A DNA stretch of 24,204 bases from a virus, in the IMG/VR virus record IMGVR_UViG_3300032053_008084, positions 1 to 24,204 of that record; one strand, given 5' to 3'. Under the pieces are notes generated by a model. That model saw only the letters and a list, made by a program, of their open reading frames with translations. It did no database searches and had not been told where the DNA came from. A program made the position numbers and the translations under genes. The number at the start of each line of letters is the position of its first letter. Position 1 is the stretch's first letter. Of this stretch, positions 3,801 to 24,204 are shown in pieces.

Positions 3801-5595
3801 AGATATTTGTTCATTGGTTGCCAAAACTTTAGATTTTGAGTTTTTTTGCGACGCGCAAGGACATTTGCAGTTTCGTCCACCCAGATATAATAAAGTTCCA
3901 CTATCTTTATTGCTTAAATTGTTTTTATTGGATAATAGAGAGGGAAGAAAATTATATCCACCATTTTTGTCAAGTTTGTTTAAATCTAGAAGCAAAAATG
4001 TTGTTGATGAGTTAGAAATAGTTGATTTAAATATTGATATTGAGTCCGCCCTCCTTGGGACACAGTTTGCTGATAATGACGTTTCGTTAATAAAAAGTGT
4101 GGTCGGAACTCTTGGCCCAGAGTCTATTTCAACCGAAAGTGTCAGGGCTCCTTCTGATTTAAAAGTTCGTGGTTTAGCGAAATTTATTTTGGACACCCGT
4201 TCCACCCTTCGTTCTAAAACTGGCGGGGCCGGTGTTGATCCCGCTTCCGACAATGATATTACTGCAATTGAAAAAGAAATAATCGACATCAACAGTCCCC
4301 CAAATATGTCCACTAACCGATTAAAGCATATAAGTCAACTAGCGCAACTGGTTAGTCATAAGGAGAGATTAGAAGATTCTAAAAGAAAACTTGACCAACA
4401 GGCAAATACTTATGATGTTACCATGCCGGCTGGCGGAATTGGAAATAACCCAAGTCCAGATATGATAAGTCCGTTTTCGGATTTAATAGAAGATGATTTT
4501 AATGATTATCTTGGACCAAATTCGTCTAAACGTTTCATAATATATGATGATCAAATAATACGTTCTAATTTTACAGAAAGTTGTGATAACGTTATTTGTA
4601 GAGTGGATGTAAATGGCGAACAAGATTTGATTGGAGAAGGGCCCGGCTCCATTGGCCAGATTCCGGTCTTGTGGGCCGGCGCGACCGATTTTGATTTATG
4701 GAGACAGTATGGATATAGGTCTGATGGCGGAATCAGTCGGCCGTTCTTTAAAAACGCTGAAACGCAATGCGCTCCGTATGCCATGATGTTGTTAAATCAA
4801 AATCGCAAAAAGGCCGTGAAGGGGTCAGTGACACTGTGTGGAAACGAGTACTATCAGTTGGGAGACGTGGTATACATAAACTCAAGAGATACTCTTTATT
4901 ATGTAACATCCGTGTCTCATGCCTTTTCTTATGCCGGATCTTTTACGACTACACTTGCGTTGGAAATGGGACACCCGCTAGGAGAATACATTCCAACACC
5001 CCTCGATGTTATTGGAAAAGGAATCATTAAAACTCAAAGAAAATTCAACAAGGTTATGTCCTCTCGACAAACTGCTGGGAAACAACTAGGAAGACATTTG
5101 GCGACAATAATATTTCCAAATACAGTATCAGACTCTGGAGAGCAGGTTTCTATGATGTCTGGGGATTTTGCTAGCTTTAATGTAAATGAAATAAAAAACG
5201 CTTTATCTATAGCTTCTTTATATCTAGGAGAAAACAAAGCTGAGTCTTATCCCAAAATAGAGGTTAGGGGTTTTACAACAAATGAAGATAATAACGATAA
5301 AGTTTTACAACGAATTGATGCCGTAATTAATATATTAAAGTGCCCTGCCGGAAAATTTTCTCAAACAAGTGGTACTTTTGCAAAATTAAATAGAAAATAT
5401 TTTAATATGGCAATACAAGATAAACAGTTTAATTATCCCAGCACTGAACCTGTTTTAATAACAGGAGATATGAATGAATCAAAAAATTCTTTAAGGTGTC
5501 CAAAAGAAGAGGTTTTTAGTTTAGTTGGGCAAAACATAGAAAATATTGAAAATATAATTGAAATAGTATTGGTTTTCAAGGATCCCGAAAAATGA
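871..5595 (+). CDS. Baseplate hub / tail-tip structural protein, very large
   Basis: This 1574-residue protein is the likely baseplate hub, the ring that carries the central spike. An N-terminal region holds a conserved-looking virion-type segment (W236 onward, DINQPDAFLVGRGSG). A coiled-coil candidate spans about 804-880 and a second helical stretch about 1128-1182. The most diagnostic part is at 1310-1382: an AMMLLNQNRKKAVKGSVTLC segment, then YQLGDVVYINSRDTLYYVTS (1328 onward), SHAFSYAGSFTTTL and PTPLDVIG (1375-1382). That pattern resembles hub proteins of large contractile-tailed phages, functional analogues of T4 gp27 and of late-control D proteins. A further 192 residues follow, an unusual extension. 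The ATG at 871 follows an AAGGA at 856-860. The TGA stop overlaps the next HNH gene (ATGA). The hub call rests on pattern memory of the C-terminal motif and on the spike gene downstream; the role of the N-terminal two thirds is not assigned. Confidence 0.75.
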   Translation: MAILFGSDVGVQQDSFGQVLDYFNSEYQTIKNGLINAFTMRMTTPPAPPKEKVFVDSGFSNVPGTSFVGSNLSSVDDIQTRQVTSQEPVLTLYIKKRAFRALRNENDLKFFDSGEKLFLRATKILFENKCQQIAAYEALTKASSLLNEESSLDYDRIASIVTVLKEYLDSSQQLSFSQIESLLEFSGVGVSSALAKANDIITQARADSEYWSSMIIGLEELQNKAGSLRHATRTNWVVDINQPDAFLVGRGSGVIELTMVTDLNTSLSLDGSVGTIGFTMQDPYNLTKITSDEIEVALSAAQAELDYPQRTRSYLGPQAYLDTAQRLDGQLKSLRKDRIANAFGLGQNSGNAILGGTDNTEIIFEINLSSSASNKVTASIGDGASFNENNFRIALLQLPIEQQLTPEENDLVIKIFFNLEGYVADLTRLNATYIENNNSYDTIHARRNLRVHYLGKTIVQPMDSVNVYIRGNTFKQDELIGPLSSFLNNSPFLRNFEQNDKVSDAMLEEEMKAMGIDGLDIPVEIYRTLRTDSLMRNAGTHVFGGIITTVSEDYSADNGTYTTQVSGASNMQWLEMSRVNRAPSLDQTQGLLEDPLTPFDIKVDEATGLPLDNPQLNKATQFFMDNDVINFNSGTNTGDKFSTNTHVQDYLTNGDGTTIPQYKHAPGVVYKWKQGIIVATRNVNLKTSLGDQEDQTQKLQREMGMTVINDPFSGQDAADIVSVLVTGYPHNYESFYENAMSVGTFNNNVQSNSPESYFHSFFDINRSQNRAFGNFQPFKTIRVDPKALHARLSEQNYLQNTSKELNKLRVDLAKLQDQRFVLGKSVEESTAIQGTEAGNALTDKQIKQQIELNRVLTSLDNRIKYSTSQINEKSKKFKESASAAPTKGLRLYGTDFALDFGGSNAESESESMKEKFKRLWLRNTILQFRPQYDCRLNFDTNLFIVGEEYDKDLDIEAFVVNMSQNISLWESQFKSPRDICSLVAKTLDFEFFCDAQGHLQFRPPRYNKVPLSLLLKLFLLDNREGRKLYPPFLSSLFKSRSKNVVDELEIVDLNIDIESALLGTQFADNDVSLIKSVVGTLGPESISTESVRAPSDLKVRGLAKFILDTRSTLRSKTGGAGVDPASDNDITAIEKEIIDINSPPNMSTNRLKHISQLAQLVSHKERLEDSKRKLDQQANTYDVTMPAGGIGNNPSPDMISPFSDLIEDDFNDYLGPNSSKRFIIYDDQIIRSNFTESCDNVICRVDVNGEQDLIGEGPGSIGQIPVLWAGATDFDLWRQYGYRSDGGISRPFFKNAETQCAPYAMMLLNQNRKKAVKGSVTLCGNEYYQLGDVVYINSRDTLYYVTSVSHAFSYAGSFTTTLALEMGHPLGEYIPTPLDVIGKGIIKTQRKFNKVMSSRQTAGKQLGRHLATIIFPNTVSDSGEQVSMMSGDFASFNVNEIKNALSIASLYLGENKAESYPKIEVRGFTTNEDNNDKVLQRIDAVINILKCPAGKFSQTSGTFAKLNRKYFNMAIQDKQFNYPSTEPVLITGDMNESKNSLRCPKEEVFSLVGQNIENIENIIEIVLVFKDPEK

Positions 5596-6317
5596 GCAGA
5601 ATTAATTTATTAAAATTTAATAAAACAAAACTGTGCGGCGGTCCGTGCGGGTGCGGAAAAGAAAAAACACTTAACGAGTTTTGTGTAAAAACTGGGCAAT
5701 GCAAGGAATGCAGAAAAATATATATGAAAAAATACAGAGAAGATAACAAAGAATATATAAAAAAACAAAGAAAAGAGTTTAGAGATTCTCACAAAAAAGA
5801 AATAAAAGCATATATGTCGTGCTATAGACAAACTCCTTTAGCAAAAGAGTCAAAAAAAATTCATGATAAGCTATATTATGACAATAATAAGACAAAAATT
5901 AAAATATATAAACAATATTATTCCAAGAAAAACAAAAATAAAATAAATGAAAACATGAGAAAAAAAAGAAATAATAATATAAATTTTAAAATTTCTTGTT
6001 CTTTGCGTAGCCGTTTGAACGAGGCTCTTAAACGTAATTTTAAAACCGGCTCTGCCGTTAGAGACATGGGATGCTCTATAGAGATGTTAAGGATTCATCT
6101 TGAGTCTAAATTTTATCAGAACAGTGAAACTGAAGAAAAAATGACATGGAACAATTATGGACGCCTGTGGCACATAGATCATGTTATTCCACTGTCCACT
6201 CTAGATTTAAAAGATGAGGATCAGTTTTATAGAGCCTGTCACTACACCAACTTACAGCCACTTTGGGTTAAAGAAAATTTAGAAAAACACAATAATTCTT
6301 TATGGGATTGGGAGTAA
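5592..6317 (+). CDS. Second HNH-type homing endonuclease (WHIDH / HYTNLQPLW class)
   Basis: This 241-residue protein belongs to a different HNH subgroup from the upstream one. The N-terminus has a zinc-ribbon-like cluster (C15, C19, C21, C31, C37, C40). Residues about 41-130 are extremely Lys/Tyr/Asn-rich and probably helical. A conserved central part (NFKISCSLRSRLNEALKRNF) leads to the catalytic region W193-H194-I195-D196-H197 and H217-Y-T-N220-L-Q-P-L-W225 with N229 and K232, the usual signature of this phage HNH class. The start is translationally coupled: its ATG overlaps the hub TGA by the ATGA arrangement, with AAGGA at 5578-5582. The stretch 5800-5990 is markedly A-rich compared with the flanking structural genes, consistent with separate ancestry. 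It ends three bases before the spike ATG. All key residues are present, so it is probably active. Confidence 0.9.
   Translation: MSRINLLKFNKTKLCGGPCGCGKEKTLNEFCVKTGQCKECRKIYMKKYREDNKEYIKKQRKEFRDSHKKEIKAYMSCYRQTPLAKESKKIHDKLYYDNNKTKIKIYKQYYSKKNKNKINENMRKKRNNNINFKISCSLRSRLNEALKRNFKTGSAVRDMGCSIEMLRIHLESKFYQNSETEEKMTWNNYGRLWHIDHVIPLSTLDLKDEDQFYRACHYTNLQPLWVKENLEKHNNSLWDWE
6310..6314 (+). promoter_or_regulatory. Ribosome binding site of the spike gene, inside the second HNH coding sequence
   Basis: GGGAG occupies the final Trp-Glu codons of the HNH gene, six bases before the ATG at 6321. As with the other HNH gene, the downstream structural gene's ribosome binding site lies within the endonuclease coding sequence. 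Confidence 0.6.
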
Positions 6318-8409: not shown

Positions 8410-10284
8410 ATGACGTGGTTTATAAATGATCCAAACATTTTAGCAACTTTGCAGACAATTACGCAGTTGGCTGGGCCCAATTTCGCTCTTCCCTATGACG
8501 ACTCAAGCCAGCCGTCGGATGGGTCAAAGCTAATGTCGGATAATTTATTACAAATCCAGTCTCCTGGCGGAATTAAAATTAGTCCGTCTGGTGATCCCAC
8601 TAAAACAAATCATATGGGATCAGCAATTAGCTCACTGCTAACTGTTTTTTCTCCTTTCGTCTATGCTTATTCCCTTATATTGCCTATACTAGGGGTTATA
8701 CGTGGTATTATAGAAGTTTTATGTGCTCTTAAAAACCCTTTTGCCGTTATTAAAGCAATTATAAGATTGTTTAAAAAATGGATACCTGCATTTCTTTCAT
8801 TATTTCCTCCAACTGCCGGTCTTTTATTGATACTGGGAGTTATTAAAATTATTTTAGCAATAGTTCTTTTTATACTAACTGTGGTTGTTCCCATTTATCA
8901 GCTTATAAAAAGAAACCTGCAAATATTAACCAACGCTACTAATGAACAACAGAAAGCTGCTTGTAAAGAAAAATTAAAAACTCTTATTGTTGAATTATTA
9001 AAACAGACGGGGTTATTGAATGTGGTAAAACCAATATTAGAGATTGTGATGGCAATTCTAAGATTGTTTAGCGGAAAGCCGTGCAAAAAGAAAAAGTCTA
9101 AAGGAAAAGCTGATCTTACAAAGGTCGTGCTCTCTGTCGATGTTGATGATGCTGATGATACCTGTTGTGATGATAACGTTTGTCCGCCAGTGTTCAAAAG
9201 TCCGCCAAAAGGAAGAGCTACTATTGTTCCGACATCTTTTTCTGACGCTCCTCCATATTTTGCTTGGAAGATATCTACTATAACAGGAAATAGTGGATTG
9301 TCACAAATATCACCATACATACAAAGTTTTCAGCAACAATTAAATTCTCAGTTAGACGAGCCTGTTAGCGAGGCCCAGACGGCAGGATCATCGGGAAACT
9401 CTGCAAGCTTCAACGTGAAGATTACAGGAAGACGAGGACAGCAGACCGCAACCATGCCAATTGTAAAAATAAAAGGTAATGATATAACTGTTATTAATCC
9501 TAGTCTTTTTACAATGATTGGTGCCGTACAATATGAAATAATTCCAAATTGGGAGGTTCTAATTGCATACGATGTTGTTGGTCTAGCTTGTCATCCTGAT
9601 GTTGCTGCCGCAAGAGATTCTATAGAGTATCCGGATACTCCGGGAATAGACATAGTTCCCGAGCTTGACAATATCGGGTTTGATAAATTTGTGTCGGACC
9701 TAAATGCCCTGATAGACTCTACTAATAAAGTTGTATTAGGTGAGCCACCATTTGATATTGATGGAATACAAAACGATATGGTTAATCTTTTAATTAATTT
9801 CATAAATAACTTAAAAAATATAATGAACAGAACCTTGTCAAAAATTACTAGTCCTTTAAATAGCGAACTAGATGTAGATAAAAATTTGGTTAAGGCTGGG
9901 GAAACAGACAAGGCTATAATTTCCGTGATACCACGTGATGCCACTGGAGCTTTAATTGCACAGCAATTGCCTGACGGTGTAAGCGTGGATGTAAAATTAT
10001 TTACAGATTTTGGAACAATATCCAACCAGGTATTGAATAGTTCAACAGGTGTTGTTACGGCAGATATAGTCTCATTGTTTTCAGGTGTAGCTACTATTAC
10101 AGCAAAAATAAACAATGAGTATATAGTAGAATTTTCTAATGATTCTAAAATTACCAGAGAGGTTTCTGTAAGATTTATTTCCGACGCGGTTCTACCAAAA
10201 CGCCGTCTTGTTTCAAAACAAAGCGCAGGTGATATTGCTCACGGAACTAGTGGGGGCTCTCAAAGAGAGCCTGGAGGAAAATAA
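8410..10284 (+). CDS. Hydrophobic baseplate-operon protein with C-terminal Ig-like domain
   Basis: This 624-residue protein is not a family I can name. Residues 76-107 and 125-166 are long, nearly uncharged stretches broken by short basic loops (K108, R119-K123), and a weaker amphipathic stretch runs about 188-212; this is how multi-pass membrane or membrane-inserting segments look. A basic cluster (KPCKKKKSKGK) and an Asp/Cys-rich segment (DDADDTCCDDNVC) follow. Residues about 485-590 fit a bacterial Ig-like (Big_1-type) domain: AGETDKAIISVIPRDATGA, then FTDFGTISNQVLNSSTGVVT and FSGVATITAKIN. AAGGA before the ATG overlaps the spike stop, and its own stop overlaps the next start (TAATG). A virion protein that enters the host membrane during DNA delivery is one reading; a chaperone-like assembly factor is another. 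Neither is shown by sequence. Confidence 0.55.
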   Translation: MTWFINDPNILATLQTITQLAGPNFALPYDDSSQPSDGSKLMSDNLLQIQSPGGIKISPSGDPTKTNHMGSAISSLLTVFSPFVYAYSLILPILGVIRGIIEVLCALKNPFAVIKAIIRLFKKWIPAFLSLFPPTAGLLLILGVIKIILAIVLFILTVVVPIYQLIKRNLQILTNATNEQQKAACKEKLKTLIVELLKQTGLLNVVKPILEIVMAILRLFSGKPCKKKKSKGKADLTKVVLSVDVDDADDTCCDDNVCPPVFKSPPKGRATIVPTSFSDAPPYFAWKISTITGNSGLSQISPYIQSFQQQLNSQLDEPVSEAQTAGSSGNSASFNVKITGRRGQQTATMPIVKIKGNDITVINPSLFTMIGAVQYEIIPNWEVLIAYDVVGLACHPDVAAARDSIEYPDTPGIDIVPELDNIGFDKFVSDLNALIDSTNKVVLGEPPFDIDGIQNDMVNLLINFINNLKNIMNRTLSKITSPLNSELDVDKNLVKAGETDKAIISVIPRDATGALIAQQLPDGVSVDVKLFTDFGTISNQVLNSSTGVVTADIVSLFSGVATITAKINNEYIVEFSNDSKITREVSVRFISDAVLPKRRLVSKQSAGDIAHGTSGGSQREPGGK

Positions 10285-11618
10285 TGGTTGAATTTAATAA
10301 AGACCTTGATTTTATTACTTTTTCTACCAATATTGTCAAAGAGATTGACAGTATACGCTCAAGTGGAAAAGACGGAGATATTCAAGAGTCCAGAATTAAC
10401 GCTCTTTATCGTGCAATTGGATTGCCAGCAATTGTTACAGACACGCGCGCGGAGCTCTTAAAATTCAACAATAATAATATATTTGATAAAATTACCGACG
10501 AAGATATCATAAATGGTCTTAAAAACAGGGAGGTTTTATATAAAACAAATCATACTGTAAAAATGGAGTCAAGTGATCCAAGATTAAAAACATTATTTGA
10601 TTTTAACTCCTCTAGCATTAAGGACAGTATAAGCGGAGATTCTAGTTTGCGAGCTCAACTGTTTCCAATGTGCAACAACGCAAATGTTGACATTTTCCCA
10701 CAAGGAAAACGGGTTGGTGGCGCTTTTATGACTGATGAAGGTTTGCAGTTTGATAAAACAAAACATTATAGGCCCTTAATAGAAACAATAATAATACTTC
10801 GCAGTAATGCATTGGGAAATTTTAATTCTGGCGACCAAAACAAAATAATAGCGCAGGGGGATTTATCTAAAGAGTTTGTTCAAATATCTAAAGACATTGA
10901 ATACAGCTTAATATTGTCTCTAAGCAACGTTGTTGTTGACATGACAGATGTAAAAAAAACAATAGACAGGTGTCGCAAACAAACCAGCGATCAAGTTGTT
11001 CCTAGCGCAACTCCGGATCAAAATACCGACATTGCCGAGAATACAGAGAATCCTGGAGAAATAGATCGTGTTCTGAAAGAACAAAAACAGTATATTGCAT
11101 TAAAAGACGCTAGATTATCCATGTTTGGTTTCGATGATACCATTGGAGTCGGAGAGTTAAAAACAAGAAATCTAAAAGATGCGGTTATGGCTTCTAGTTT
11201 AATTAATATTATTTTCAGTGATTCTGGGCAAATAGAGACTTCGATAAAAGAAATTGAAAAGAAAAAAGAAAAAGTAACAGTTTCGTTAAAGCAAACCTTT
11301 AGAGACTTGGATTTGATACTCGGGACGTTTAGCGGATTGTCTGGCACAGACGTCCTTGTTATACTTTTTGCTTTGTTTAGACTAGATGTTACGTCTCTAA
11401 TGCAACTCCTAAACAAAGATGCTAGAATTAGACTAAAAGGTCAGTTGGGTTTAGATTACGTTGAATCATTTGATGACAGTGCCAGTGTTATTGGTGCCAT
11501 AAAAGCTCTTGAAACAAAAGTTGAAAAAATTATCAATGCGCTATCATCTGAGATGGAACAAACCAAGCATAAAAACAAAGATATAAATAAAATTTCAAAT
11601 ATATGGGAGAGCATATAA
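10284..11618 (+). CDS. Uncharacterised baseplate-region protein
   Basis: I do not recognise this 444-residue protein. It is mostly polar and probably helical. It has a possible coiled coil around 310-340 (KEIEKKKEKVTVSLKQTF), one short hydrophobic stretch at 356-376 (DVLVILFALFRL, then TSLMQLL), and a Lys-rich helical tail ending in NIWESI. Two cysteines occur among the polar residues. The start overlaps the upstream stop by one base (TAATG) with a perfect GGAGG at 10273-10277. The stop overlaps the gp25-like start in the same way. Tight coupling on both sides, between the hydrophobic protein and the wedge gene, argues for a fixed structural or assembly role in the baseplate. There is no catalytic motif to suggest an enzyme. 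Confidence 0.5.
   Translation: MVEFNKDLDFITFSTNIVKEIDSIRSSGKDGDIQESRINALYRAIGLPAIVTDTRAELLKFNNNNIFDKITDEDIINGLKNREVLYKTNHTVKMESSDPRLKTLFDFNSSSIKDSISGDSSLRAQLFPMCNNANVDIFPQGKRVGGAFMTDEGLQFDKTKHYRPLIETIIILRSNALGNFNSGDQNKIIAQGDLSKEFVQISKDIEYSLILSLSNVVVDMTDVKKTIDRCRKQTSDQVVPSATPDQNTDIAENTENPGEIDRVLKEQKQYIALKDARLSMFGFDDTIGVGELKTRNLKDAVMASSLINIIFSDSGQIETSIKEIEKKKEKVTVSLKQTFRDLDLILGTFSGLSGTDVLVILFALFRLDVTSLMQLLNKDARIRLKGQLGLDYVESFDDSASVIGAIKALETKVEKIINALSSEMEQTKHKNKDINKISNIWESI
11605..11609 (+). promoter_or_regulatory. Ribosome binding site that sets the gp25-like start
   Basis: GGGAG lies eight bases before the ATG at 11618. An earlier in-frame ATG at 11603 would put this site inside the coding sequence and would lack its own, so 11618 is preferred. 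Starting there also makes the protein begin MSFDLALINGDL, the usual beginning of this family. Confidence 0.7.
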
Positions 11619-12043
11619 TGTCATTCGATTTGGCTTTAATTAATGGAGATTTAAAAATTCAACCTAATGGGTTAGTTAAAACAATAACAGATACTCCAAA
11701 GTTACGTCAGGATATTATTAAAATAGTTTTAACTCCCTTGGGATCAAACCAAAACCACATGTGGTATGGTTGTTCTATTTCAGAAGATATTGGTAAAAAC
11801 TTTCCACACGATCTTCATTTAGCAAGAATACAAACAAACGTGTCCAAAACCTTAGACAGGCTTAAGGCTTTGCAAATATCTCAATCCGTTAATCAAAAAG
11901 TTTCTTTGGCTGAATTAATTAATAGCGTTGGGGAAATTAATGTGGAAAGAGATGATAATGACCCACGGCAACTAAATGTCGTGGTAACAGTATTTAGTAA
12001 AAGATTAGCCAAAATAGAGGAGTTGTTTACGATAATTTCATAA
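11618..12043 (+). CDS. Baseplate wedge protein, GPW/gp25-like
   Basis: This 141-residue protein matches the GPW/gp25 family, the small wedge component that nucleates the sheath and links it to the baseplate in contractile tails and related injection systems. Visible hallmarks are the N-terminus (FDLALINGDLKIQPNGLV), the TDTPKLRQDIIKIVLTPLGS segment, and then the WYGCSIS turn. A helical middle and a final beta strand (LNVVVTVFSKRLAKIEELF) follow. The length is normal for the family. The start at 11618 overlaps the preceding TAA by one base. Its position just before the J-like gene repeats the gene order seen in many myoviruses (W then J), which supports both assignments. Confidence 0.88.
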   Translation: MSFDLALINGDLKIQPNGLVKTITDTPKLRQDIIKIVLTPLGSNQNHMWYGCSISEDIGKNFPHDLHLARIQTNVSKTLDRLKALQISQSVNQKVSLAELINSVGEINVERDDNDPRQLNVVVTVFSKRLAKIEELFTIIS

Positions 12044-12061: not shown

Positions 12062-15000
12062 ATGATTTTTAAATCATTTAATGATATTGTTATAAGTATG
12101 ATTGACTATTTGAGACTTGTTCAAAACGACCTGGATACAAAACCAGGAACGGTATCTAGAGACCTATTTATTGATTCACCGGCCCAACAAATGGCGGAAA
12201 TATACTCTCAAATAAGAAATATAGCAAATCTTTCTTCTTTGTTTTCTTCAAACGGGTCTGACTTGAATAATTTGGCTTCCAACTTCAACGTTTCTAGAAA
12301 TCCAGGGAGTTCGTCTATCGGTGTTGCTATTTTTACAACAAATATTTTAGATACTGATATAATAATTGCTTCTGGATCAGTGGTTGTTGCTAATAATGGG
12401 GTTTCGTTTCAGGTAGTTAACACTGCTGTTATGAAAGCTACAAGCTCAAATGTGTATAAGTCAACGGCAACAAGGTTTAAAACAGAATTAAATTTGGCCG
12501 GAATAACAGACACATATGCTATAGAGGTAAATGTCGAGTCATTAACTACTGGTTCTTCGGGAAATATTGGGCCATATTCTATATCTTCTCAGAATGTTTC
12601 TGGTGTATCAAATGTAACCAATTTACAGTCTTTTTCTGGAGGAAGCAATCCTGAAAGTGATGATGCTTTTAGAACAAGAATTTTAAGCGTATTTGCGGGA
12701 AGTAACACGGGAACTTCGTTAGGTTACACAACCACCATAGAGTCTTTGTCTGGAGTTGAAGACTCTGTAATTGTTTTGCCTGGCGACACATTATTGATAC
12801 GAGACGGCACACAGGTTGTTACTGACAGTGATGGGAATTCCACAATAACATCTATTGGAACTGGCGGAAAAGTAGACATATATGTTCTGGGCAACGTTTT
12901 ATCTTCCAGAATAGATTCTTTTATTTATAACGATAAAAGTGGAAATCATGATTCTACAGATCCTATAAACGATTTTATATTAGGACAACAGGGGCAGAGT
13001 ACATCCACAAATGTTTCTCAAAGAAGAATTGATTTAATATCTTCGGAACAATTGCCTTTTCAGCCGGTTGATGGTGTTGTTTCAGTTGTAGGAAGCTCTT
13101 CTGGGTCAAACTTTATAGAAAAATATACTGATGGCTCTGGCCTAACGCACGGAAACTTTCAACTACTAAAAGACACTGGGGATTTTGGTGGAAGTCCTTT
13201 TGGATTTGATCGTTTAAGGTGGGTGTCTAGTTTGATTGAGCTAGAGGGGGAGGAAGCAACTAAGGGAATTTTTAATGGCACAGACCAAATGCAATTTTCT
13301 GACATTGAGGAGATTAAATCAATAACTCAAGATGTTTTGGTTATCAGTGAGAGTGTTTTTGTAAACTCAAGCAGCAGAAGTTCTGTTACATTAAAACACA
13401 CTCCTATACGCAATGTTAATCGTGTAGTAAACCTTACCACAGGAGAAAGATATATAGTTTCTAATCAAAATCCTAATGGGGAGGCTGATGCATTAAACAC
13501 TACTGGAAGCATAACAATTAGTGGGAACACGCTGCCATCAGCAACAGATGTTTTACAGATAGACTATGTGTGGGTTAAGTCTTTTGACCGGGTGTTTGAT
13601 TTCGATAATTTGATAGACCATAATGCTACAAGGTTTGCGCAAGATTCTGTTGATTGGGGTTTTGGAAACTTAGTACAAAACGAACAAACAACTATTGTTT
13701 CTGATGTAGGTGGGAGTCTTAATGTTACAGTTGTAAATCCTATATACAGTGTTTTATCTGTGCTGGTTTTTCACAATTACACGTCTGTGGTTTCAGACGG
13801 CACCGTGTCTGTTGCTCCAGGAGATGTTGTTACCAACGTTCTTGATATAAGGCGGGCTAGCGACAATGCCGAGTTATTCAATACTGATTCAAGACAGGAA
13901 GGTCTCAATGGAACAAACGTAATATCTCTTCCGCTAGATAGTATTGCTAACGATGGAGATGTCGCAACAATAAGATTCAATTATTCTGATATTTTTTCGT
14001 CGGATGCTTACGGAACTGGGCATTTTTCCGACAACACAATTTATTTTTCTGAAAATGTGGCTTCCGAGGGAGATGTGGTTTTAGTGAATTACATTGCCAG
14101 CGTTTCCAATTTGATTCCAGAGAATAATATTTCTTTATTGCCAGCTGTTTCGTCTGAAAACAAATTCATGTTAGATGGCGTTTTATTGGGATATCAGCCA
14201 ACATCAAATGTTTATAGTGGAACGACGATAACTAATAACCTTAGAAAAGCAGGAAGTAATTTAAAAATTTCTGTTGGATCTACGCGGTCGAGTGGCGCCC
14301 TTTCTGTTTTAGGAACAACTATACATTTGGTTTCTGACGCATTAGTTTCAATAACCTCATCTGATGGGTTTGAGGTAGATTTATCTAATGCTATAATGGA
14401 TGACGCCAATATATCCGCCATTACGTCCTCAATAAAAGTTGCAAAAATTTACTCTGTTGAAAAAGTTCACATTGATTCTTCGAACAACGTTATATCAGTA
14501 GATAATGTTTTTGATGTCGTTAATTATAAAATTAACGATAATTCTGGTGATATAAATATTGCTCTAACAGACACACTGCTATCTAAAACAAAAATAGCTT
14601 TACCGAGAACACCCGATAATATTATCAATCAACTAAACACAGGAGATTTGATAAGAATTACGTTTTATTATATTAATAATAATGATAATGAATCAATATA
14701 TTTTTCCAAAAATGGAGAGCAGATAACTAGCAAGATTTTCACAAATGTAAGTAGAATTTATGTAAATTCTGGATTTAAAGATATATCTAACAATCTTACC
14801 GGCGTGTTTTCTGTTAGTAATTTTAATCAACCGTTAGATAATACCACATATGTTTTAAATTATAATTATGTGGCACCAAAAGAAAATGAAAGAATAACAA
14901 TAACTTTTAATTACAACTCTATCATTAACACTTCTACTCTTGCTATTGAGCAAGTTAGACCAATAACCGCGGACATATTGGTTAAAGCAGCAAAAGAAAA

Positions 15001-15292
15001 AAGTATTAATGTATCTGTGAGAATAGTTTTGTTGCCAGAGTTTTCTGATCAAGAGCAAACTGTTGTCCAGAACGCTATAGATTCCGTGTCTTCTTTTTTT
15101 ACCAGCACGAGTCTTGGAACAACAATAGATGCATCTGATGTTATAAATACATTATACTCTGTGCAAGGAATAGATAGGGTTAGGGTTTTAAATTTCAGTT
15201 CCGACAACGGAAACAACACCCTTAGTATTACTGCCTTAAAAAACGAATATTTAAGTGCAGGAACTATAGATATACAATCTGAGACGAGGTAA
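12062..15292 (+). CDS. Baseplate J-like wedge protein with a large beta-rich insertion
   Basis: This 1076-residue protein is the J-like wedge component (P2 gpJ / T4 gp6 type). The N-terminal part (1-250) has the expected pattern: VSRDLFIDSPAQQMAEIYSQ, LASNFNVSRNPGSSS, GGSNPESDDAFRTRI, then SGVEDSVIVLPGD from about 230. The C-terminal part (967-1076) has the closing domain: TADILVKAAKEKSINVSVRI, then QTVVQNAIDSVSSFF, and DASDVINTLYSVQGIDRVRV. Between them lie about 730 residues rich in Ser, Asn, Thr and Asp. They carry repeated strand motifs of the type G-D-x-[VLI]-x-[IV]-x-[YF]-x-Y (near 496, 632, 670, 861 and 928), like stacked beta-sandwich domains. Ordinary members are a few hundred residues long, so this one is strongly enlarged. 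AGGAG at 12052-12056 precedes the ATG at 12062. The stop is three bases from the next start. Confidence 0.82.
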   Translation: MIFKSFNDIVISMIDYLRLVQNDLDTKPGTVSRDLFIDSPAQQMAEIYSQIRNIANLSSLFSSNGSDLNNLASNFNVSRNPGSSSIGVAIFTTNILDTDIIIASGSVVVANNGVSFQVVNTAVMKATSSNVYKSTATRFKTELNLAGITDTYAIEVNVESLTTGSSGNIGPYSISSQNVSGVSNVTNLQSFSGGSNPESDDAFRTRILSVFAGSNTGTSLGYTTTIESLSGVEDSVIVLPGDTLLIRDGTQVVTDSDGNSTITSIGTGGKVDIYVLGNVLSSRIDSFIYNDKSGNHDSTDPINDFILGQQGQSTSTNVSQRRIDLISSEQLPFQPVDGVVSVVGSSSGSNFIEKYTDGSGLTHGNFQLLKDTGDFGGSPFGFDRLRWVSSLIELEGEEATKGIFNGTDQMQFSDIEEIKSITQDVLVISESVFVNSSSRSSVTLKHTPIRNVNRVVNLTTGERYIVSNQNPNGEADALNTTGSITISGNTLPSATDVLQIDYVWVKSFDRVFDFDNLIDHNATRFAQDSVDWGFGNLVQNEQTTIVSDVGGSLNVTVVNPIYSVLSVLVFHNYTSVVSDGTVSVAPGDVVTNVLDIRRASDNAELFNTDSRQEGLNGTNVISLPLDSIANDGDVATIRFNYSDIFSSDAYGTGHFSDNTIYFSENVASEGDVVLVNYIASVSNLIPENNISLLPAVSSENKFMLDGVLLGYQPTSNVYSGTTITNNLRKAGSNLKISVGSTRSSGALSVLGTTIHLVSDALVSITSSDGFEVDLSNAIMDDANISAITSSIKVAKIYSVEKVHIDSSNNVISVDNVFDVVNYKINDNSGDINIALTDTLLSKTKIALPRTPDNIINQLNTGDLIRITFYYINNNDNESIYFSKNGEQITSKIFTNVSRIYVNSGFKDISNNLTGVFSVSNFNQPLDNTTYVLNYNYVAPKENERITITFNYNSIINTSTLAIEQVRPITADILVKAAKEKSINVSVRIVLLPEFSDQEQTVVQNAIDSVSSFFTSTSLGTTIDASDVINTLYSVQGIDRVRVLNFSSDNGNNTLSITALKNEYLSAGTIDIQSETR

Positions 15293-15295
15293 GAG

Positions 15296-18200
15296 ATGGC
15301 ATTTTCAATTGTTAGAATAACTAATTTTACTGTTTCTAATATCAATATTCTTTTCAACGAAGATATTGATACGTCGGTTGGTATAGATAATGTTTCATTA
15401 ACATCGTCTGTAAGCAGTGTTTCTGACCCAGACATAATATCTCTTATTATAGATAACGACAATATTAATTTAACATTCAGTCCTCTTTTCCCTAATATAA
15501 AATATTTTCTACAATTTTCTAGCACGCCCTCTGTTTTGTTTAGAGCTACTAGCGGAGAAGTTATAACAGAGGATGGGAACAGAAACGCTATTTTCATTGT
15601 TAGTCCGGGAGAAATCTCTGACAACATTAGAGAATCTATGATGGATGACTTGTCTCCAACGGTGTACGAAACAAGCGAACCAACCTTGATAAGAGATTTG
15701 GTGTCTGGGATGTCCAGCCAGTTTCATAAATTATCAGACTCAGCAGAAATAGCTCGTTCTGGAAATTATCTATCTGTTTTAGTTACAGATGAATTGGTTA
15801 CGCGCGGGGACGGCCCCACAGATAAGTTGTCCAAACAGGGCGCTTTTGAAATTTTAAAGGTGTCTCCTACCATATCAGGGTCAAGCAGGCCGGGGTTTTT
15901 AGAGTTTGGGTTTTCCAGAAAACAATTTTTTGATTCGCGAGATGGGATTTATTTAAATCCTATTATAGAAACTTTGACGTCAGATCCTATTAGTTTGCAA
16001 GCAGAAGATGTTGTTAATGAAACTGTAACAGACGATATTAATCTAAACAATCATTTTTCTGGATTAAAAATTAAACTAGAAAATAAAAATGTAATGCAAG
16101 TAATATCTGTTGCTCTTGTAAGAAATAGTTCTTACACAGAATATAATATTTCCGCCTATGGATATACTTTGTTAGATAACAGATATGACACGCTTCTGGC
16201 CGGAATTAATGTTAACTTAAACAGCAATGAGGTGGAGTTGTCATCAAAATCTATAACAGGGGGCGCTGGCGGTTTTATTATTCCAGAAGCCGGAGATCAG
16301 ATAAAAATTTCTTATGTTTACAAAAACCTTGGAAGAAATATAACATCTGGCAGTGTTTCTTTAACCACCACTAAAACTATTGCTCGAGAAATATGTCCCG
16401 CAATCACAAATAGATATTCTACTCTTAATGCCCCGATTATAAATAATTTTGACGAAATTTCTACCGCTGGTGGGGTTACCTTTTTGTGCACGCAGTCTAC
16501 GTCGTCATTAGATGCCTTTATATCAAACCATCCGGCCTTTAACAGAGAAATAAAATTTGATATTTCCAGGCTTCCGTCTAGGCCGGGAGAGTTTAGTGTC
16601 AATTATAATACCGGAGAGATAAATGTATTTGGTGAAGACCAGAATAATGATGGAACCGGTGTTGCACCTCCAGCAATAAATTACTTGTACAGAAAAATAT
16701 TTTTAGAGAATTTGGATTTTGTTTTTGATGGTGACACTAGCGAACTAGCAATAAACTCTACCAGAAATATATCTGGCATCGAGGCCAAGATATCTTTTGA
16801 ATTTGAAGATGTTTTCGCTGACGGGAGTGATTTTGTCGCTTTGTCTCATATAGAATCTTTAAATGAAAGAGTTGAAAACAGATTAGTTTCTGATTTCATG
16901 CTAAGCACAAAGAAATATCCGATAACAAATGTTTTTAGAATATTTAATGAAACTACCGGAGAAGTATACAATATAACTAGATTTAATGACTCTACGGTTA
17001 CTTTTTCAGGAAGACGTGCGCCTAGACAAATTGATGTTAAGAGAGAAAAAGCTTATTTTGACTCTGTGTCGCAAGAAGTTCTTTTAGTATCTGATGAACT
17101 AACAAACACCACAAACCTTAGAGTTTTTAAAATTAGTTTATCTAATGGTGGCTTAACAGATGGGCGCGGAAGATTTATTGGGGCCAATTTTAATACATCG
17201 GTGATATTTTCCAATAATGATATTTTTGTTAACGAGTTTTTTTACGAAGATAGGATTTATAACGATATTGATACCAATTTAGATAAACTAACATCTGTTG
17301 GAGATTATATCGTAGATTATATTAATGGAGTAGTATATGTTTCTGTTTCTTCTGACCAAGATTTGGATATTGGAGAAATAAAATATAAATATAAAAATAT
17401 AAAAACAAACAAAGAACATATATTAAATGTGTTTGATGTATACAGAAGCTCTAGTTCGTTATCATCTAATATTAAAAATTATAATTTTACAAACATATTG
17501 GATGGTACTGTAACGGTTTCTAACCTAGAAGAAGTTGGTCAAAAATTTATTGACGATGACTCCTCTAGACCGCTTATTGTTGGTGTTTCACAGGATGGAA
17601 ACGATGGAATATTTTCTCTTGGAAGAAATATATTTACATCAAATTCTGCTACTTTTACATCAGATGATGTTGGAAAAATACTAACTGTTGGTTCCAATAA
17701 CGATTTGCCAATAGATTCTTTTACTGTTACCATGATAGTGAACTCTCACCAGATTATTGTTGATCAGAATTTTACATTAGGAAAGAACGGAGCTCCGTGG
17801 AGCTTGGTATATTCTGATCAAGCATCACCAAAAACACTAGTGTTGGATTTTAATGCAATATCTGTTAAAGCTATCTATAAAACTTCTGAATTAGAAACTT
17901 TGCCGTTTTCTTCTTTAACAAATTACTTTGATATTAATACAGATTTTATTGAAGACAATATAGTCACTTTAGATGCGTATAATTTATTACAAAATGGCGA
18001 TTCTGTATTGATAGATTATAATTATGGAGATTTGTTTGTAGATTACGTTTATCTTGGTGACGAAATTTTAGTTTCATATGAATATGGGAATAATAGTTTA
18101 AATTGGAGTGTTAGCAGCTCTTTACCTGTCGGCAGCCAGTATTATGTTACATATAAATACGGGGCCCTAAGAGATTCTCTTTTGTCAAATTTTGGCTCGT

Positions 18201-21200
18201 TAACACAAATACCACAACTTACTACTTTTTCTCTGGATTTAAACAGAGAGACCTACAGGTCTATACTTGGAGGAACCCTTCAGTCTTTTATAACAGGTCC
18301 AACAATTCCATCTATAGAGGGTTTGGTTGAGTCGTTCACCGAAGTTAAACCAAATATAAAAGAAAACATAGTTGGGTGGATTTTGGGCGAAAGCAACCTA
18401 AATATTAAAGCCCCAACATATAATTCGTCAAAAACTTTTGATTTTGGAAAATTCAATCAAGGTCTCAGAGTGTCTGACAATCAATATGTAGAAGTTCAGG
18501 CGCCATCTCATTTAAAAATTAACGAAGGAACTATTGAAACATGGATAAGGCCATCTTGGAATGGAATTGAAAATGATTCAACATTAACTTTTGATTTATC
18601 AATGGATGGGTATTCGGATGCTTCAAATATATATATTGGGTTTTTAGGGGAAAATCCGAGCACAAATCCGTTTACATTAAAGATTGATTCTAATAATATA
18701 TTTGAATTAAATTTCCCATCCGAAATGAGTGACAAAACCGGGTTTTTTATATGGTTTGATGGCGTCAGCGGGTTATGGCAAATAAGATGGAGACAAAATC
18801 CGGCAGAATCTCATGTCTTTTCTGGAACCATATCTACTACTGGAGAGTTTTTTAACATATCTGTTCCTGTTGAAAACTCAAGCAACATCAATGAAGTAAC
18901 GGATGTGATTACTAGTACGGAAAAAGAAATAAATTTTAATGCATCTATAGATGGATATGATGTGGCAACAGATGATTATGGGCTGTCTATTGACGGAGTT
19001 TCTTTTTCGTCTGGTGACTCTCATTACATTTTTGATATGGCCCATGGGCAATCCTCTAATAGAATGTCATTATTTAAAGATGGAAAAGGATTTATTAATT
19101 TCAGAGTGTTTGATAACAAATCTCTATTCGGATTAAGCTCTGGTTTTTATAATTTATCTTCTGATGTTTCTGATTGGTTGTCTGAACAACTACACCATAT
19201 TGCCGTATCTTGGAAATTCAACTCTCCTGATGAGAAAGATGAGATGCACCTGTTTATAGATGGGTTTGAGGCTCCAAATTTATTTAAATATGGAGGAAAA
19301 CCAGATTTTGTAAATGATTCGTCTATGTTTGGAGATGTTGCCGAAGAGATTTTATCCGCATCTGCGCCAAAATCTATAGTTGGCGGTTTCGACGGATTCT
19401 CCACTGCTGGATCAAATATATTTTCATCACTAGGAAGTGATTTTGTGGCATCTGGTATTAGCGTGGGGGATTTATTATACATATTAGATGAAACTCCTGA
19501 CGGAACAGAGTTTCCAAATGAAGGAGACCCTTATACTATTACCGGTGTTGGAGAGCATTCAGTCGAGGTAAGCTCTAGCTTATCTCTATCTCTCGGAAAT
19601 ATACATTTCAGTATAAACCAATACAGTGTCAGTGTGGACACACCAATTGATATTCAAAGATTTGTGGTTGTAAAACAGGATGCCTATGGTAATGAAACAG
19701 AGATTAATGGACTTAACTCTGATTCTCCTGACTATTCTATTTTGTCTGGTTCAAATTTTTCTTACACTATTTATTTAAATAATAATATTGATGAAGGAAG
19801 CAGGGTTGTTTTAAAAACATTAGGTTTAATATTTAAGAGATTTTTAGACAAAATCTATGTATATGGTGGAGGTTATGACACTATTAGAACCAACTCTAGT
19901 CCACCAACAGACCTGAGCGATGTCAAAATAACAGAAATAATATTAGACGGATATAATATAAGCGTAGACAATGATTTTGTGATAAGCGGGCCAAATATGG
20001 AGAGGTTTCTTAATATATATTGCCAACCAAGCAATAATACACGAGGAAGAACCTTGGCGATTACTCTTTTGGGAGAAAATATAGATTATGGTGTTGGGCC
20101 AAATCAAGTTATTATAAGCGGAACAACTTATTCTGGTGCCACAACCGAAACTATAAATTTTAGTGAAAATGGAACACAATATACTGACGAATATTGGACA
20201 TCAATTAGCAACGTGTTTGTTGGCGTGACGCCAACAAATGATGTTATTGCGGACACATCATTGTCTGCCGGTGTGATAGAAATAAGAGAGAAGGACTCAA
20301 TAACAGTGTCTAACAATTCTGGAGATTGCGCGGAAGTTTCTCAATATTCTAATGGTATTTTTAGACTAGAAATATATGGTAGTGCCGGACAGCCTTTTGT
20401 TTTAAATGGATGCTTGTATGAAATAGATTACACATCATATCTTAAAATAAATATAGACAGTCTTCCAGAAATGTTTTATATTGGAAGTGATTTTGCTGGA
20501 CAAAACATATTAAATTCGGTTATTGATGAGTTTAGAATCTTAGATTACATGTCAACAGATACTAGAGTTGGGGAGTCTCTAGGAAGCTTACCAAGAACAA
20601 TAACTACTGATTTTATGTATAATTTTGCATTTACTGAAGATAATAATACTTTACTGCTTATGCATTTTGATGGCAGCGGAGACGACTCTTCTAAATTTAT
20701 TGATAAATTCAATTCTGGGTTTGAGGTGGCGCAAAGCGTTAATGATTCTTTTGATAAAGGAATTAAATTGGCGAACAATAGGCCGTATATTATAGATAAT
20801 GCGGGATTTATATTTAACAATAATGAGGGTTCTTTAGAATTTTGGATGAGTCCGCTAGAAGATATGAATAACAACCCAAATTATCATTATTATTTTGATG
20901 CATCTTCCATTGTTCAAGATGTTTCCGAATCAATAACAGCTACAACTGTCACGTCTAATCAAAAAATTAGAACCATTGATAGCGTTAGGCTTGTTAGCGA
21001 CACATATAATTCTGGAATAAATTATTTTGTCGGGGGACGCGTTTCTAATATTGATGGTAAAACTATTACTCTAGGAATACCGCTTCCGGCCCAAAACATT
21101 GGTGTGAAAATCACATATGTTCCAATGAGTAACAATGGCGACAGAGTTAGTGTTTTTGCTGACGAATTTGGGTTTATAAATTTTTATATAAAAGCAAGTA

Positions 21201-21847
21201 ATATAGAATATTTATTAAGCTCTTATGTAAATTGGAACAGACACACGTGGCATAGAATTATGGTAATGTGGAAGACTAATTCTGAGAATAATTTGGACAG
21301 AATGAGATTATTCGTTGACGGCAGCGAAAGTGGGACAATCAAATATGGAACAGGTTTATTGTACGGAAATGGTGTTATTTATGGTCAAGCGGAAATTAGA
21401 GCAGGAACAGATAGATTTTTGGTGGACAATATAGATTTAACAGATACATTTTCACAAATTTATACTGGAACAGATGTGTTTTCTGCAAACGGCGCAAATG
21501 CAATTTTAGATAATATTAGGTTTTCTGATATACAAAGATTGCAGTTGATTAGAACAACGACAACGGACATTATAGATGCAGGATTTCAGCAAAATACGGA
21601 TTTTGCAATTCCTACAGTTGGTGATTTAAATACTACAGCGTTGTATAATTTTGATTCTATTCCTTTTGAGATCACTAGTGCAACAACATTAGTGAATCCA
21701 AAAAATGGGATTTTTAAATTTGAGGTAGAGGTTATAGATTCTTTAGACAAAGTTATAGGAAATCCTGATTTAGAAAATCTATTAATAACACTGATTAATG
21801 TTATAAAGCCTGCCTCATGTACAGCGATTATCAAGTTTAGAAAATAA
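15296..21847 (+). CDS. Giant baseplate/tail protein with two LamG-like lectin domains
   Basis: This 2183-residue protein is the largest in the window. The N-terminus (about 5-100) looks like an Ig-like domain (NINILFNEDIDTSVGIDNVS). Several beta units carry the same G-D-x-[IV]-x-[IV]-x-Y-x-Y strand motif as the J-like protein. One has an acidic turn at 446-455 (GEDQNNDGTG). A conserved-looking helical segment (970-1025: YRSILGGTLQSFITGPTIPS) precedes the first LamG/concanavalin-A-like domain, with GTIETWIRPSW at 1078, HHIAVSWKFN at 1300, LFIDG at 1319 and FYIGSD...IDEFRIL at 1727-1749. The second copy has GSLEFWMSP at 1845, HTWHRIMVMWK at 1983, LFVDG at 2005 and IYTGTD...LDNIRFSD from 2055. 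Such domains usually bind glycans or proteins, so host-surface or inter-fibre contact is likely. GAGG at 15286-15289 overlaps the previous stop. Its place after the J-like gene would fit a gpI-type wedge-to-fibre adaptor, but that is positional inference. Confidence 0.75.
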   Translation: MAFSIVRITNFTVSNINILFNEDIDTSVGIDNVSLTSSVSSVSDPDIISLIIDNDNINLTFSPLFPNIKYFLQFSSTPSVLFRATSGEVITEDGNRNAIFIVSPGEISDNIRESMMDDLSPTVYETSEPTLIRDLVSGMSSQFHKLSDSAEIARSGNYLSVLVTDELVTRGDGPTDKLSKQGAFEILKVSPTISGSSRPGFLEFGFSRKQFFDSRDGIYLNPIIETLTSDPISLQAEDVVNETVTDDINLNNHFSGLKIKLENKNVMQVISVALVRNSSYTEYNISAYGYTLLDNRYDTLLAGINVNLNSNEVELSSKSITGGAGGFIIPEAGDQIKISYVYKNLGRNITSGSVSLTTTKTIAREICPAITNRYSTLNAPIINNFDEISTAGGVTFLCTQSTSSLDAFISNHPAFNREIKFDISRLPSRPGEFSVNYNTGEINVFGEDQNNDGTGVAPPAINYLYRKIFLENLDFVFDGDTSELAINSTRNISGIEAKISFEFEDVFADGSDFVALSHIESLNERVENRLVSDFMLSTKKYPITNVFRIFNETTGEVYNITRFNDSTVTFSGRRAPRQIDVKREKAYFDSVSQEVLLVSDELTNTTNLRVFKISLSNGGLTDGRGRFIGANFNTSVIFSNNDIFVNEFFYEDRIYNDIDTNLDKLTSVGDYIVDYINGVVYVSVSSDQDLDIGEIKYKYKNIKTNKEHILNVFDVYRSSSSLSSNIKNYNFTNILDGTVTVSNLEEVGQKFIDDDSSRPLIVGVSQDGNDGIFSLGRNIFTSNSATFTSDDVGKILTVGSNNDLPIDSFTVTMIVNSHQIIVDQNFTLGKNGAPWSLVYSDQASPKTLVLDFNAISVKAIYKTSELETLPFSSLTNYFDINTDFIEDNIVTLDAYNLLQNGDSVLIDYNYGDLFVDYVYLGDEILVSYEYGNNSLNWSVSSSLPVGSQYYVTYKYGALRDSLLSNFGSLTQIPQLTTFSLDLNRETYRSILGGTLQSFITGPTIPSIEGLVESFTEVKPNIKENIVGWILGESNLNIKAPTYNSSKTFDFGKFNQGLRVSDNQYVEVQAPSHLKINEGTIETWIRPSWNGIENDSTLTFDLSMDGYSDASNIYIGFLGENPSTNPFTLKIDSNNIFELNFPSEMSDKTGFFIWFDGVSGLWQIRWRQNPAESHVFSGTISTTGEFFNISVPVENSSNINEVTDVITSTEKEINFNASIDGYDVATDDYGLSIDGVSFSSGDSHYIFDMAHGQSSNRMSLFKDGKGFINFRVFDNKSLFGLSSGFYNLSSDVSDWLSEQLHHIAVSWKFNSPDEKDEMHLFIDGFEAPNLFKYGGKPDFVNDSSMFGDVAEEILSASAPKSIVGGFDGFSTAGSNIFSSLGSDFVASGISVGDLLYILDETPDGTEFPNEGDPYTITGVGEHSVEVSSSLSLSLGNIHFSINQYSVSVDTPIDIQRFVVVKQDAYGNETEINGLNSDSPDYSILSGSNFSYTIYLNNNIDEGSRVVLKTLGLIFKRFLDKIYVYGGGYDTIRTNSSPPTDLSDVKITEIILDGYNISVDNDFVISGPNMERFLNIYCQPSNNTRGRTLAITLLGENIDYGVGPNQVIISGTTYSGATTETINFSENGTQYTDEYWTSISNVFVGVTPTNDVIADTSLSAGVIEIREKDSITVSNNSGDCAEVSQYSNGIFRLEIYGSAGQPFVLNGCLYEIDYTSYLKINIDSLPEMFYIGSDFAGQNILNSVIDEFRILDYMSTDTRVGESLGSLPRTITTDFMYNFAFTEDNNTLLLMHFDGSGDDSSKFIDKFNSGFEVAQSVNDSFDKGIKLANNRPYIIDNAGFIFNNNEGSLEFWMSPLEDMNNNPNYHYYFDASSIVQDVSESITATTVTSNQKIRTIDSVRLVSDTYNSGINYFVGGRVSNIDGKTITLGIPLPAQNIGVKITYVPMSNNGDRVSVFADEFGFINFYIKASNIEYLLSSYVNWNRHTWHRIMVMWKTNSENNLDRMRLFVDGSESGTIKYGTGLLYGNGVIYGQAEIRAGTDRFLVDNIDLTDTFSQIYTGTDVFSANGANAILDNIRFSDIQRLQLIRTTTTDIIDAGFQQNTDFAIPTVGDLNTTALYNFDSIPFEITSATTLVNPKNGIFKFEVEVIDSLDKVIGNPDLENLLITLINVIKPASCTAIIKFRK

Positions 21848-22000: not shown

Positions 22001-24204
22001 ATGGTTTCTAGAAATTCTTGGTTTGATGGGCAACAAGTAAGCGATGTTGATTTAAATACCGAACAAGATGCGTGGCTTGCTGGCACAACAAACGCTGTTA
22101 ATATATCTGTTGGGAGTGGTGTTGAAAAAGAATTCGCCGTCCAACGAACGTTGTTTGATTCTGACAGCGTCCCTGTGTCAATAACATCATTGATGCAAAC
22201 GCCCGCTTTCGACGGATGTCCAATTTTTCAAACAGATGTGTACGGTCTTCCTGTTTTTATTCAGCCATCAGATGCGTCGGGCGGAAACCAACTAGAAGTA
22301 ATTTTAACAGGATCTGGTCTGTTTGGGTCAGCCACTGTAAAAATATATATATTCGGAAAAATATTCGGTGGGTTGTTTTCCTATGAGGTTTTGACTTTTG
22401 TTAAAAACGAATCTCAAACTACGCAAAAATATTTTACAGAAATTATTTCTATTATGACGCAAGATTTTATGGGAAATCAAAATGATATCGTTACCGGAAC
22501 CCCCTGTAGGGTTGCGGGCGGAAGAATACAAATTTTAGAAACTGTTTCCATGACCGTTGTGAGAGACGCTGTAATGGCAGAGCAATCAGCGGAACCCAAC
22601 ATGGATTTTGTGGATTTTAAACCCGCAAATGTTTCTAAAAATTTAAACCAAGTGCTGGAAGAAATTGCGGCAGTAGACAGTCTAGACGTCAATGATTTGC
22701 AGATTAATGTTACGGCCACTGGTACCAGAAAACTGCTGCCAAGCGTTGGCGGGGTTATCGTGGGCCAAAAATTTAAAGCAACAACTGGCAATATACAAAA
22801 AGTATCTACACTGTTGTCTGTTGAAGACGACGCGGTATATGGGTTTAGTTGGTCTGGAAGCATAGTTTTGGGCATAAGACAATTGCAGTCTACAGTAACG
22901 TGTCAAACAGATATTGTTCCAGGAACATCAATTGAATTTGATCCATATCCAGTATCTTTAGCGGAAATATCTTTTACGCAAAATGATTTGGAAAATCTTG
23001 GTGTTATATTAACAGATGTTCCGCAGGTGGTAGACTTTGTTTTTGCAACTTCAACCATAGCAAATTCTTCTACATCAACGGGAATAGAGACAGATAAATT
23101 CTATATGGTTACTGTTAGTAGATCCGGTGATATTAGAGAAGGAACTATTGTTCTCGAAGAGGCGTCAAACATAACAGCAGACACTTCTTCTATGCGTTTG
23201 TCAGTGTTTTCTCAAAACACGTGGACGGATGTTGTAGGAAGCAATTTGTGGTTTAAAGTATACACCAGCGCGGCAAGAGTAACAAGCGGAACAGCCTATG
23301 ATAATGGGATACAGATAGTTTCACCAAAGATAGAATTAAACAGTGAAACGGGAGTTGAAGAATCACATAATGAAAATCATCATAGTTTGTTGAGTACATC
23401 TTATACTACTGACAATTATGTTATAGTTCAGGCGTCTAACAATTTTACAACATCAGTTCCCCATCCGGCCACGGGAAATCCGATTTTTACCAGAGTTGAG
23501 GATGTTCCGGATATATCTGTTGTGTCGAAAACAAGTCTAAACACTCTTATAGATGCCGGGAACGACACAATAATTTTAGGAAACATAAAAGATGATAATC
23601 GTACAGCAAAAAACAATATTGTATTATCCGGACAAACAATTTATCCAGGACTGGCAGGAGCATCAACTTTTACTATAATAAATCCTCCGCAAGAAATATT
23701 ATCAAATAATTTAGTCGGGTCTATTTTAACCCCAAATATAAACCTTTCCGCTCTCAAGTATAGAATAATATACTCTGAAATATTTGATGATAAATACGGA
23801 GATGTTAATGGTGATGGGATAATTAATGACAGTGATGTTACAGCAAACTTAATGTTAGACGGGTACTCTTTATCTATATTTCCTGATGACCAACTAGATG
23901 CCATTGTTGATGGATATATATCTATGGCAGAAATTATAAGGGCTGATGTTAGTGGAAACGGGACTGTAAGCCTAGCGGATGCCGTTTTAATACAGCAGTA
24001 TATAAATCTTGGAACACCGTTTCCTGTTGGAAATACGTTTAAACGAATAGAGTTGACTGTTGAAAGCACATTTGATCCACTAAATACTTCTGTGGACATT
24101 GTGGGAAATGATCCTTTGTTTAACACGGTTGTTCTTGAAGAGTTTCAGGCGCTCACATATCAAATAAAGATTGTTTCAACATGGAATCCGGAAAATATAG
24201 TAAT
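22001..24204 (+). CDS. Fibre-like tail protein with dockerin-like calcium-binding segment (3' end missing)
   Basis: The frame is open from the ATG at 22001 to the window end, giving 734 residues so far. The start has AAGGAG at 21989-21994, six bases before the ATG. The N-terminus (RNSWFDGQQVSDVDLNTEQD) has the WFDGQ-V...DLN-EQ pattern I associate with fibre or appendage proteins that attach to phage baseplates. The middle is Ser/Thr/Asn-rich beta structure without a family I can name. Residues 601-612 (DVNGDGIINDSD) and 649-660 (DVSGNGTVSLAD, followed by AVLIQQYINLG) are classic dockerin type I calcium-loop-plus-helix motifs. A degenerate third loop lies at 633-644 (D633, D637, G638, I640, E644). 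The protein probably sits at the tail periphery, next to the LamG protein, in host contact. The fibre call is moderate; the calcium-loop reading is strong. Confidence 0.7.
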   Translation, partial: MVSRNSWFDGQQVSDVDLNTEQDAWLAGTTNAVNISVGSGVEKEFAVQRTLFDSDSVPVSITSLMQTPAFDGCPIFQTDVYGLPVFIQPSDASGGNQLEVILTGSGLFGSATVKIYIFGKIFGGLFSYEVLTFVKNESQTTQKYFTEIISIMTQDFMGNQNDIVTGTPCRVAGGRIQILETVSMTVVRDAVMAEQSAEPNMDFVDFKPANVSKNLNQVLEEIAAVDSLDVNDLQINVTATGTRKLLPSVGGVIVGQKFKATTGNIQKVSTLLSVEDDAVYGFSWSGSIVLGIRQLQSTVTCQTDIVPGTSIEFDPYPVSLAEISFTQNDLENLGVILTDVPQVVDFVFATSTIANSSTSTGIETDKFYMVTVSRSGDIREGTIVLEEASNITADTSSMRLSVFSQNTWTDVVGSNLWFKVYTSAARVTSGTAYDNGIQIVSPKIELNSETGVEESHNENHHSLLSTSYTTDNYVIVQASNNFTTSVPHPATGNPIFTRVEDVPDISVVSKTSLNTLIDAGNDTIILGNIKDDNRTAKNNIVLSGQTIYPGLAGASTFTIINPPQEILSNNLVGSILTPNINLSALKYRIIYSEIFDDKYGDVNGDGIINDSDVTANLMLDGYSLSIFPDDQLDAIVDGYISMAEIIRADVSGNGTVSLADAVLIQQYINLGTPFPVGNTFKRIELTVESTFDPLNTSVDIVGNDPLFNTVVLEEFQALTYQIKIVSTWNPENIV

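Follow-up and report, generated by a model that had tools for sequence, protein, structure and literature searches.

Type I dockerins, which bind cohesins, have two EF-hand-like calcium motifs arranged as loop-helix-helix-loop-helix (PMC12484212). The DNA analyzed here, a linear virus record of 24,204 bases (IMG/VR record IMGVR_UViG_3300032053_008084; hereafter the window), encodes a dockerin-like module within a fibre-like phage protein, which raises the question of what such a module does in a phage appendage. An earlier note on this DNA had offered three roles: locking the fibre fold with calcium, joining the fibre to a cohesin-like partner in the virion, or binding cohesin-bearing surface proteins of the host. 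Of these, the present results agree best with a fibre fold locked by calcium.

The fibre gene is the last one in the window and stands downstream of genes for baseplate proteins:

11603-12043, plus strand: sheath initiator or gp25-like baseplate protein (PHROG baseplate protein, E 1.8e-11; Pfam below cut-off)
12062-15292, plus strand: Baseplate J-like wedge protein (Pfam Baseplate_J, E 1.2e-18; PHROG baseplate wedge subunit, E 9.7e-39)
15296-21847, plus strand: LamG-domain protein of 2183 aa, directly upstream of the fibre gene (Pfam Laminin_G_3, E 1.3e-8)
22001, plus strand: ATG start of the fibre ORF, preceded by AAAAGGAGAGAAAA, a good AAGGAG-type ribosome site
22001-24202, plus strand: fibre-like baseplate appendage protein, ORF open at the window end

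Because the fibre gene runs past the end of the window, only 734 residues of its protein are visible. The location of the baseplate genes upstream places this protein in the baseplate or appendage region of an apparently contractile-tailed phage, where it is presumably a fibre in the strict sense. The baseplate J protein of the window distantly resembles gp188 of Bacillus phage G. PHROGs yielded no match for the fibre protein of the window and no convincing one for its homologues. Further upstream, the tail region includes an HNH endonuclease gene (130-870; Pfam HNH match over the cut-off) and a second stretch noted as an HNH endonuclease gene (5592-6317), which exhibits an HNH-like IDHVIPLS string without a Pfam match. 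The product of 8410-10284 shows a weak Invasin D3/Big_1 Ig-like match near its C-terminus (E about 1e-3, below the cut-off).

Within the fibre protein, the module and its surroundings are composed as follows, with secondary structure taken from AlphaFold models of the window's own crop and of a complete homologue:

23759-23794, plus strand: predicted beta-strand directly before the module, residues 587-598 (crop model; counterpart 595-606 in the homologue model)
23795-24007, plus strand: Dockerin_1 profile match, residues 599-669 (Pfam E 9e-6; dockerin fold in the homologue model)
23801-23836, plus strand: predicted calcium loop 1, DVNGDGIINDSD, residues 601-612 (D1 and D12 in 35 of 35 modules, D5 in 33 of 35)
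23861-23944, plus strand: lengthened inter-loop segment, residues 621-648, with a predicted extra helix (invariant G621; includes DAIVDGYISMAE)
23945-23980, plus strand: predicted calcium loop 2, DVSGNGTVSLAD, residues 649-660 (D1 in 35 of 35 modules, D12 in 34 of 35, D or N at position 5 in 34 of 35)
23972-24010, plus strand: predicted helix after loop 2, residues 658-670 (helix 102-114 of the crop model; relatively conserved in the family)
24035-24067, plus strand: predicted beta-strand adjoining the module on its C-terminal side, residues 679-689 (crop model; 692-702 in the homologue model)

The two loops with dockerin spacing, which the earlier note had located at residues 601-612 and 649-660, were found exactly there. 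A profile search, suggested in the same note as a check, placed Dockerin_1 (PF00404) over residues 599-669 with a score of 26.2 bits, above the curated cut-off of 22.9. Solved dockerins also came out on top when structures were searched with the window protein using phmmer (E about 5e-7). Apart from DVNGDGIINDSD and DVSGNGTVSLAD, no match to D-x-[NDST]-x-[DN]-G-x5-D occurs in any of the six reading frames of the window, and the distance between the first aspartates of these two loops is 48 residues. The inter-loop string DAIVDGYISMAE (633-644), which is EF-like in the window, was discarded as a third calcium loop, the ligand positions not being kept in homologues. Acidic loops are common, and the pair could in principle consist of plain calcium loops or reflect a chance or low-complexity resemblance instead of a dockerin fold. 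However, when the composition of the protein was shuffled 200,000 times, a pair of such loops 28-70 residues apart appeared only once, with the loop pattern having been written after the loops had been seen.

Homologues of the fibre protein occur in about 40 IMG/VR contigs of uncultured phages with lengths of up to 395 kb, which were reached via neighbour genes and then via alignments. They fall into two subfamilies, with complete proteins of about 939-954 aa and about 1505-1540 aa, respectively. In both subfamilies the module is present at the same internal place in every homologue that reaches this position. Counted over 35 distinct modules, the ligand aspartates are almost invariant, with position 12 of the loops being an aspartate rather than a glutamate, and they stay in place while the overall identity of the fibre drops to about 30% across the family. 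This conservation speaks against a chance resemblance, for which the weakness of the profile in some members could be put forward. Dockerin_1 was matched by nine of the 13 members of alignment A5. In nucleotide searches of two sets of related records, matches were obtained in 10 of 19 and in 10 of 14, with the curated cut-off being exceeded in 7 of the 19 and 6 of the 14. Four of the 14 records gave no Dockerin_1 match at E 0.01, and a homologue with 55% identity reached a weak score of 17.7 bits. The one exception among the 35 modules (contig L015/L100) shows a frameshift precisely where the module begins (18434-18458 of L015) and a degraded second loop, DVLDVGLVTTAS, which represents either an assembly error or a decaying module. 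As all eight related records without a fibre end within the upstream LamG gene, no confirmed loss of the module is known.

No relatives of the fibre were found among 50,697 phage records; matches in these records that covered the dockerin stretch only, namely unverified faecal scaffolds and one weak match in a Rheinheimera phage, were set aside. A LamG protein with a length of 2.2-3.5 thousand residues is encoded in 18 of the 20 related records that were examined for it. The LamG neighbour of the fibre had no relative in bacterial genome contigs. An N-terminal stretch of the fibre (profile positions 89-156) recurs in two related contigs (L054 and L056; E 9.4e-8 and 4.5e-5) within the long LamG protein encoded upstream and, judged by this likeness, is a domain shared by both proteins. 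Downstream of the dockerin fibre, runs of glycosyltransferase genes were observed in three contigs (L004 10819-12936, L005 11818-17021 and L006 11556-15498; those of L004 and L005 were assigned by Pfam to group 1 and family 2, those of L006 by resemblance), which are possibly involved in the decoration of the virion or of host glycans. In L005, a NUMOD3/I-HmuI-type homing endonuclease follows the fibre gene.

Structure prediction, another check named in the earlier note, yielded a confident dockerin fold in the model of the 55% identical homologue and a low-confidence model for the window's own crop. The former was obtained from an AlphaFold run on a 13-row alignment, in which this complete homologue of 942 residues formed the first row. 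Across residues 601-690 its pLDDT is mostly about 78-93, dropping in a linker near 630-640. The module is predicted to sit between the strands 595-606 and 692-702, and about 250 further residues follow it on the C-terminal side. Compared with the dockerins 4uyp, 8x39, 4uyq, 4fl4 and 2ccl, the modelled module gave Z scores of 8.3-9.2 and an rmsd of 2.0-2.5 Å over 60-67 residues, those at Z 9.2 having an rmsd of 2.1-2.5 Å over 66-67 residues, and Foldseek assigned it to solved dockerins with a probability of 1.00 and a weak E-value of about 0.1. In the crop of the window, strands and helices follow one another as in the homologue (strand, helix, helix, strand), with a mean pLDDT of 55.9 and Z scores against dockerins of only 2.1-2.7; its Foldseek matches were dismissed as meaningless owing to the low confidence of the model. 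With several dockerins matching the predicted fold at Z 8-9 over 60-73 aligned residues, a mere resemblance of acidic loops appears extremely improbable. The profile match, the family-wide conservation of the ligands, the predicted fold and the baseplate context together bear out the earlier proposal that a phage appendage protein contains a dockerin-like module.

In several respects the phage module resembles type I dockerins of PF00404, such as those of ScaB (4uyp), the Clo1313_0689 double dockerin (8x39) and C. thermocellum xylanase Y (2ccl/1ohz). It shares with them two 12-residue D-x-N-x-D-G loops with an aspartate at position 12, a profile score over the cut-off and, with Z 8-9 for the homologue model, the predicted loop-helix-helix-loop-helix fold. 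Another likeness is to the group-1 dockerin 5m2o from R. flavefaciens, of which 73 of 74 residues align over residues 602-693 of the homologue (Z 7.4, 27% identity); unlike the phage module, 5m2o belongs to a fibre-degradation scaffold system and was solved together with its cohesin. Differences concern spacing and position. The loop starts are separated by 46-61 residues in the phage family but by 36 in the ScaB dockerin (as read from the alignments with 4uyp), and whereas cellulosomal dockerins are separate and usually terminal modules, the phage module is internal and predicted to lie between strands. Given these features, the module is classed as a dockerin by sequence and by fold, and not with the demonstrated members of a cohesin-dockerin system. 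The central domain of the fibre has other counterparts: residues of about 192-434 of the homologue model resemble phage baseplate and central-fibre domains (Z 10.9-12.0), and the likeness to the phi812 baseplate protein (9euj/9eui) and to the central fibre gp20 of mycobacteriophage Douge (8zdq) is restricted to this domain and does not include the dockerin module.

What is already known is one remote phage homologue in UniProt that bears the dockerin name. This protein of an uncultured Caudovirales phage (A0A6J5RS54, 1332 aa) appears from its Foldseek match (E 2.6e-66 at a probability of 1.00, 23% identity over 1128 columns) to be homologous to the fibre as a whole, along most of its own length, and its name "Dockerin domain-containing protein" is an automatic one. 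Searches of open-licence papers brought up no work on dockerins in phage appendages. The "dockerin" of E. coli phage HSE2 refers to a likeness to a carbohydrate-binding structure (PMC5967307), and that of VvAW1 gene 40 is a BLAST remark without structural context (PMC3558961).

As docking is the known job of the dockerin fold, the module might act as a protein-protein joint in the virion, which would attach the fibre to the baseplate or another appendage by docking it onto a beta-sandwich domain, cohesin-like or other, that could lie in the adjacent LamG protein, for instance. The frequent presence of the large LamG protein among related records and the conserved helix after loop 2, which judging from the alignment would also fit a partner interface, are in line with such a joint. 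However, the cohesin profile PF00963, which could miss a divergent cohesin-like beta-sandwich, matched neither the window nor any of 30 related records, ten of them of 206-395 kb, some being near-duplicates and the records being fragments or of unknown completeness. That the search works follows from the match obtained in the control genome of Methanosarcina acetivorans. In classical clostridial type I dockerins, positions 10-11 of the loops read the cohesin. In the phage fibre, positions 10-11 of loop 1 and position 11 of loop 2 are among the least conserved of the protein, while position 10 of loop 2 is moderately conserved in the family. Most of these positions thus vary in the phage modules, although they also differ between species in cellulosomal dockerins. 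Neither the profile search nor these weakly conserved positions lend support to the cohesin-like partner in the virion that the earlier note had considered, and the internal, not terminal, place of the module also speaks against it. With the helix following loop 2 fairly well conserved and the large LamG neighbour offering further candidate domains, docking inside the virion keeps some plausibility, though we regard such a joint as a tentative and rather doubtful explanation. Somewhat less likely still, and thus clearly speculative, is that the phage lineage uses a dockerin-type module as a standard internal joint of its virions, with a divergent cohesin-like partner in a neighbouring baseplate or LamG protein; if true, this would constitute a cohesin-dockerin-like connector in a virus.

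The module could also bind cohesin-bearing surface proteins of the host and be part of receptor recognition. Receptor-binding tips usually differ between phages, whereas the module occupies one place in every member of both subfamilies, and the long stretch that still follows it in the complete homologue is likewise not suggestive of a tip. As dockerin genes are known from environmental bacteria, e.g., Omnitrophota and Hydrogenedentes (PMC10066038; PMC9377139), hosts with cohesins are conceivable. On balance, binding to the host appears very unlikely.

It is probable, with some reservation, that the module serves the structure of a conserved baseplate fibre as an insertion stabilised by calcium, and this is more likely than a plug for a cohesin. 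In a beta-rich domain of this baseplate-associated fibre protein, residues of about 599-670 would sit between two strands as an EF-hand pair of the dockerin fold, in the order loop-helix, extra helix, helix-loop-helix. Uptake of two calcium ions outside the cell would cause this insert to fold, which would rigidify, stiffen or space that part of the fibre. The module would then be a built-in structural clamp or spacer that was inherited by the whole phage lineage, and not a removable cohesin plug. That it is conserved across two subfamilies points to a function within the virion itself and away from host recognition. What speaks against the calcium lock is that the good model is that of the homologue, the predicted structure of the window's own crop being poorly folded.

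Read as a calcium-held insert, the module would be a cell-surface assembly domain that has turned into a permanent component of a phage appendage throughout a lineage. By this module, a fibre family of uncultured phages with contigs of up to 395 kb can be recognised, and it provides a concrete reason to test the calcium dependence of these virions. Moreover, it may be a case of the dockerin fold working without a cohesin.
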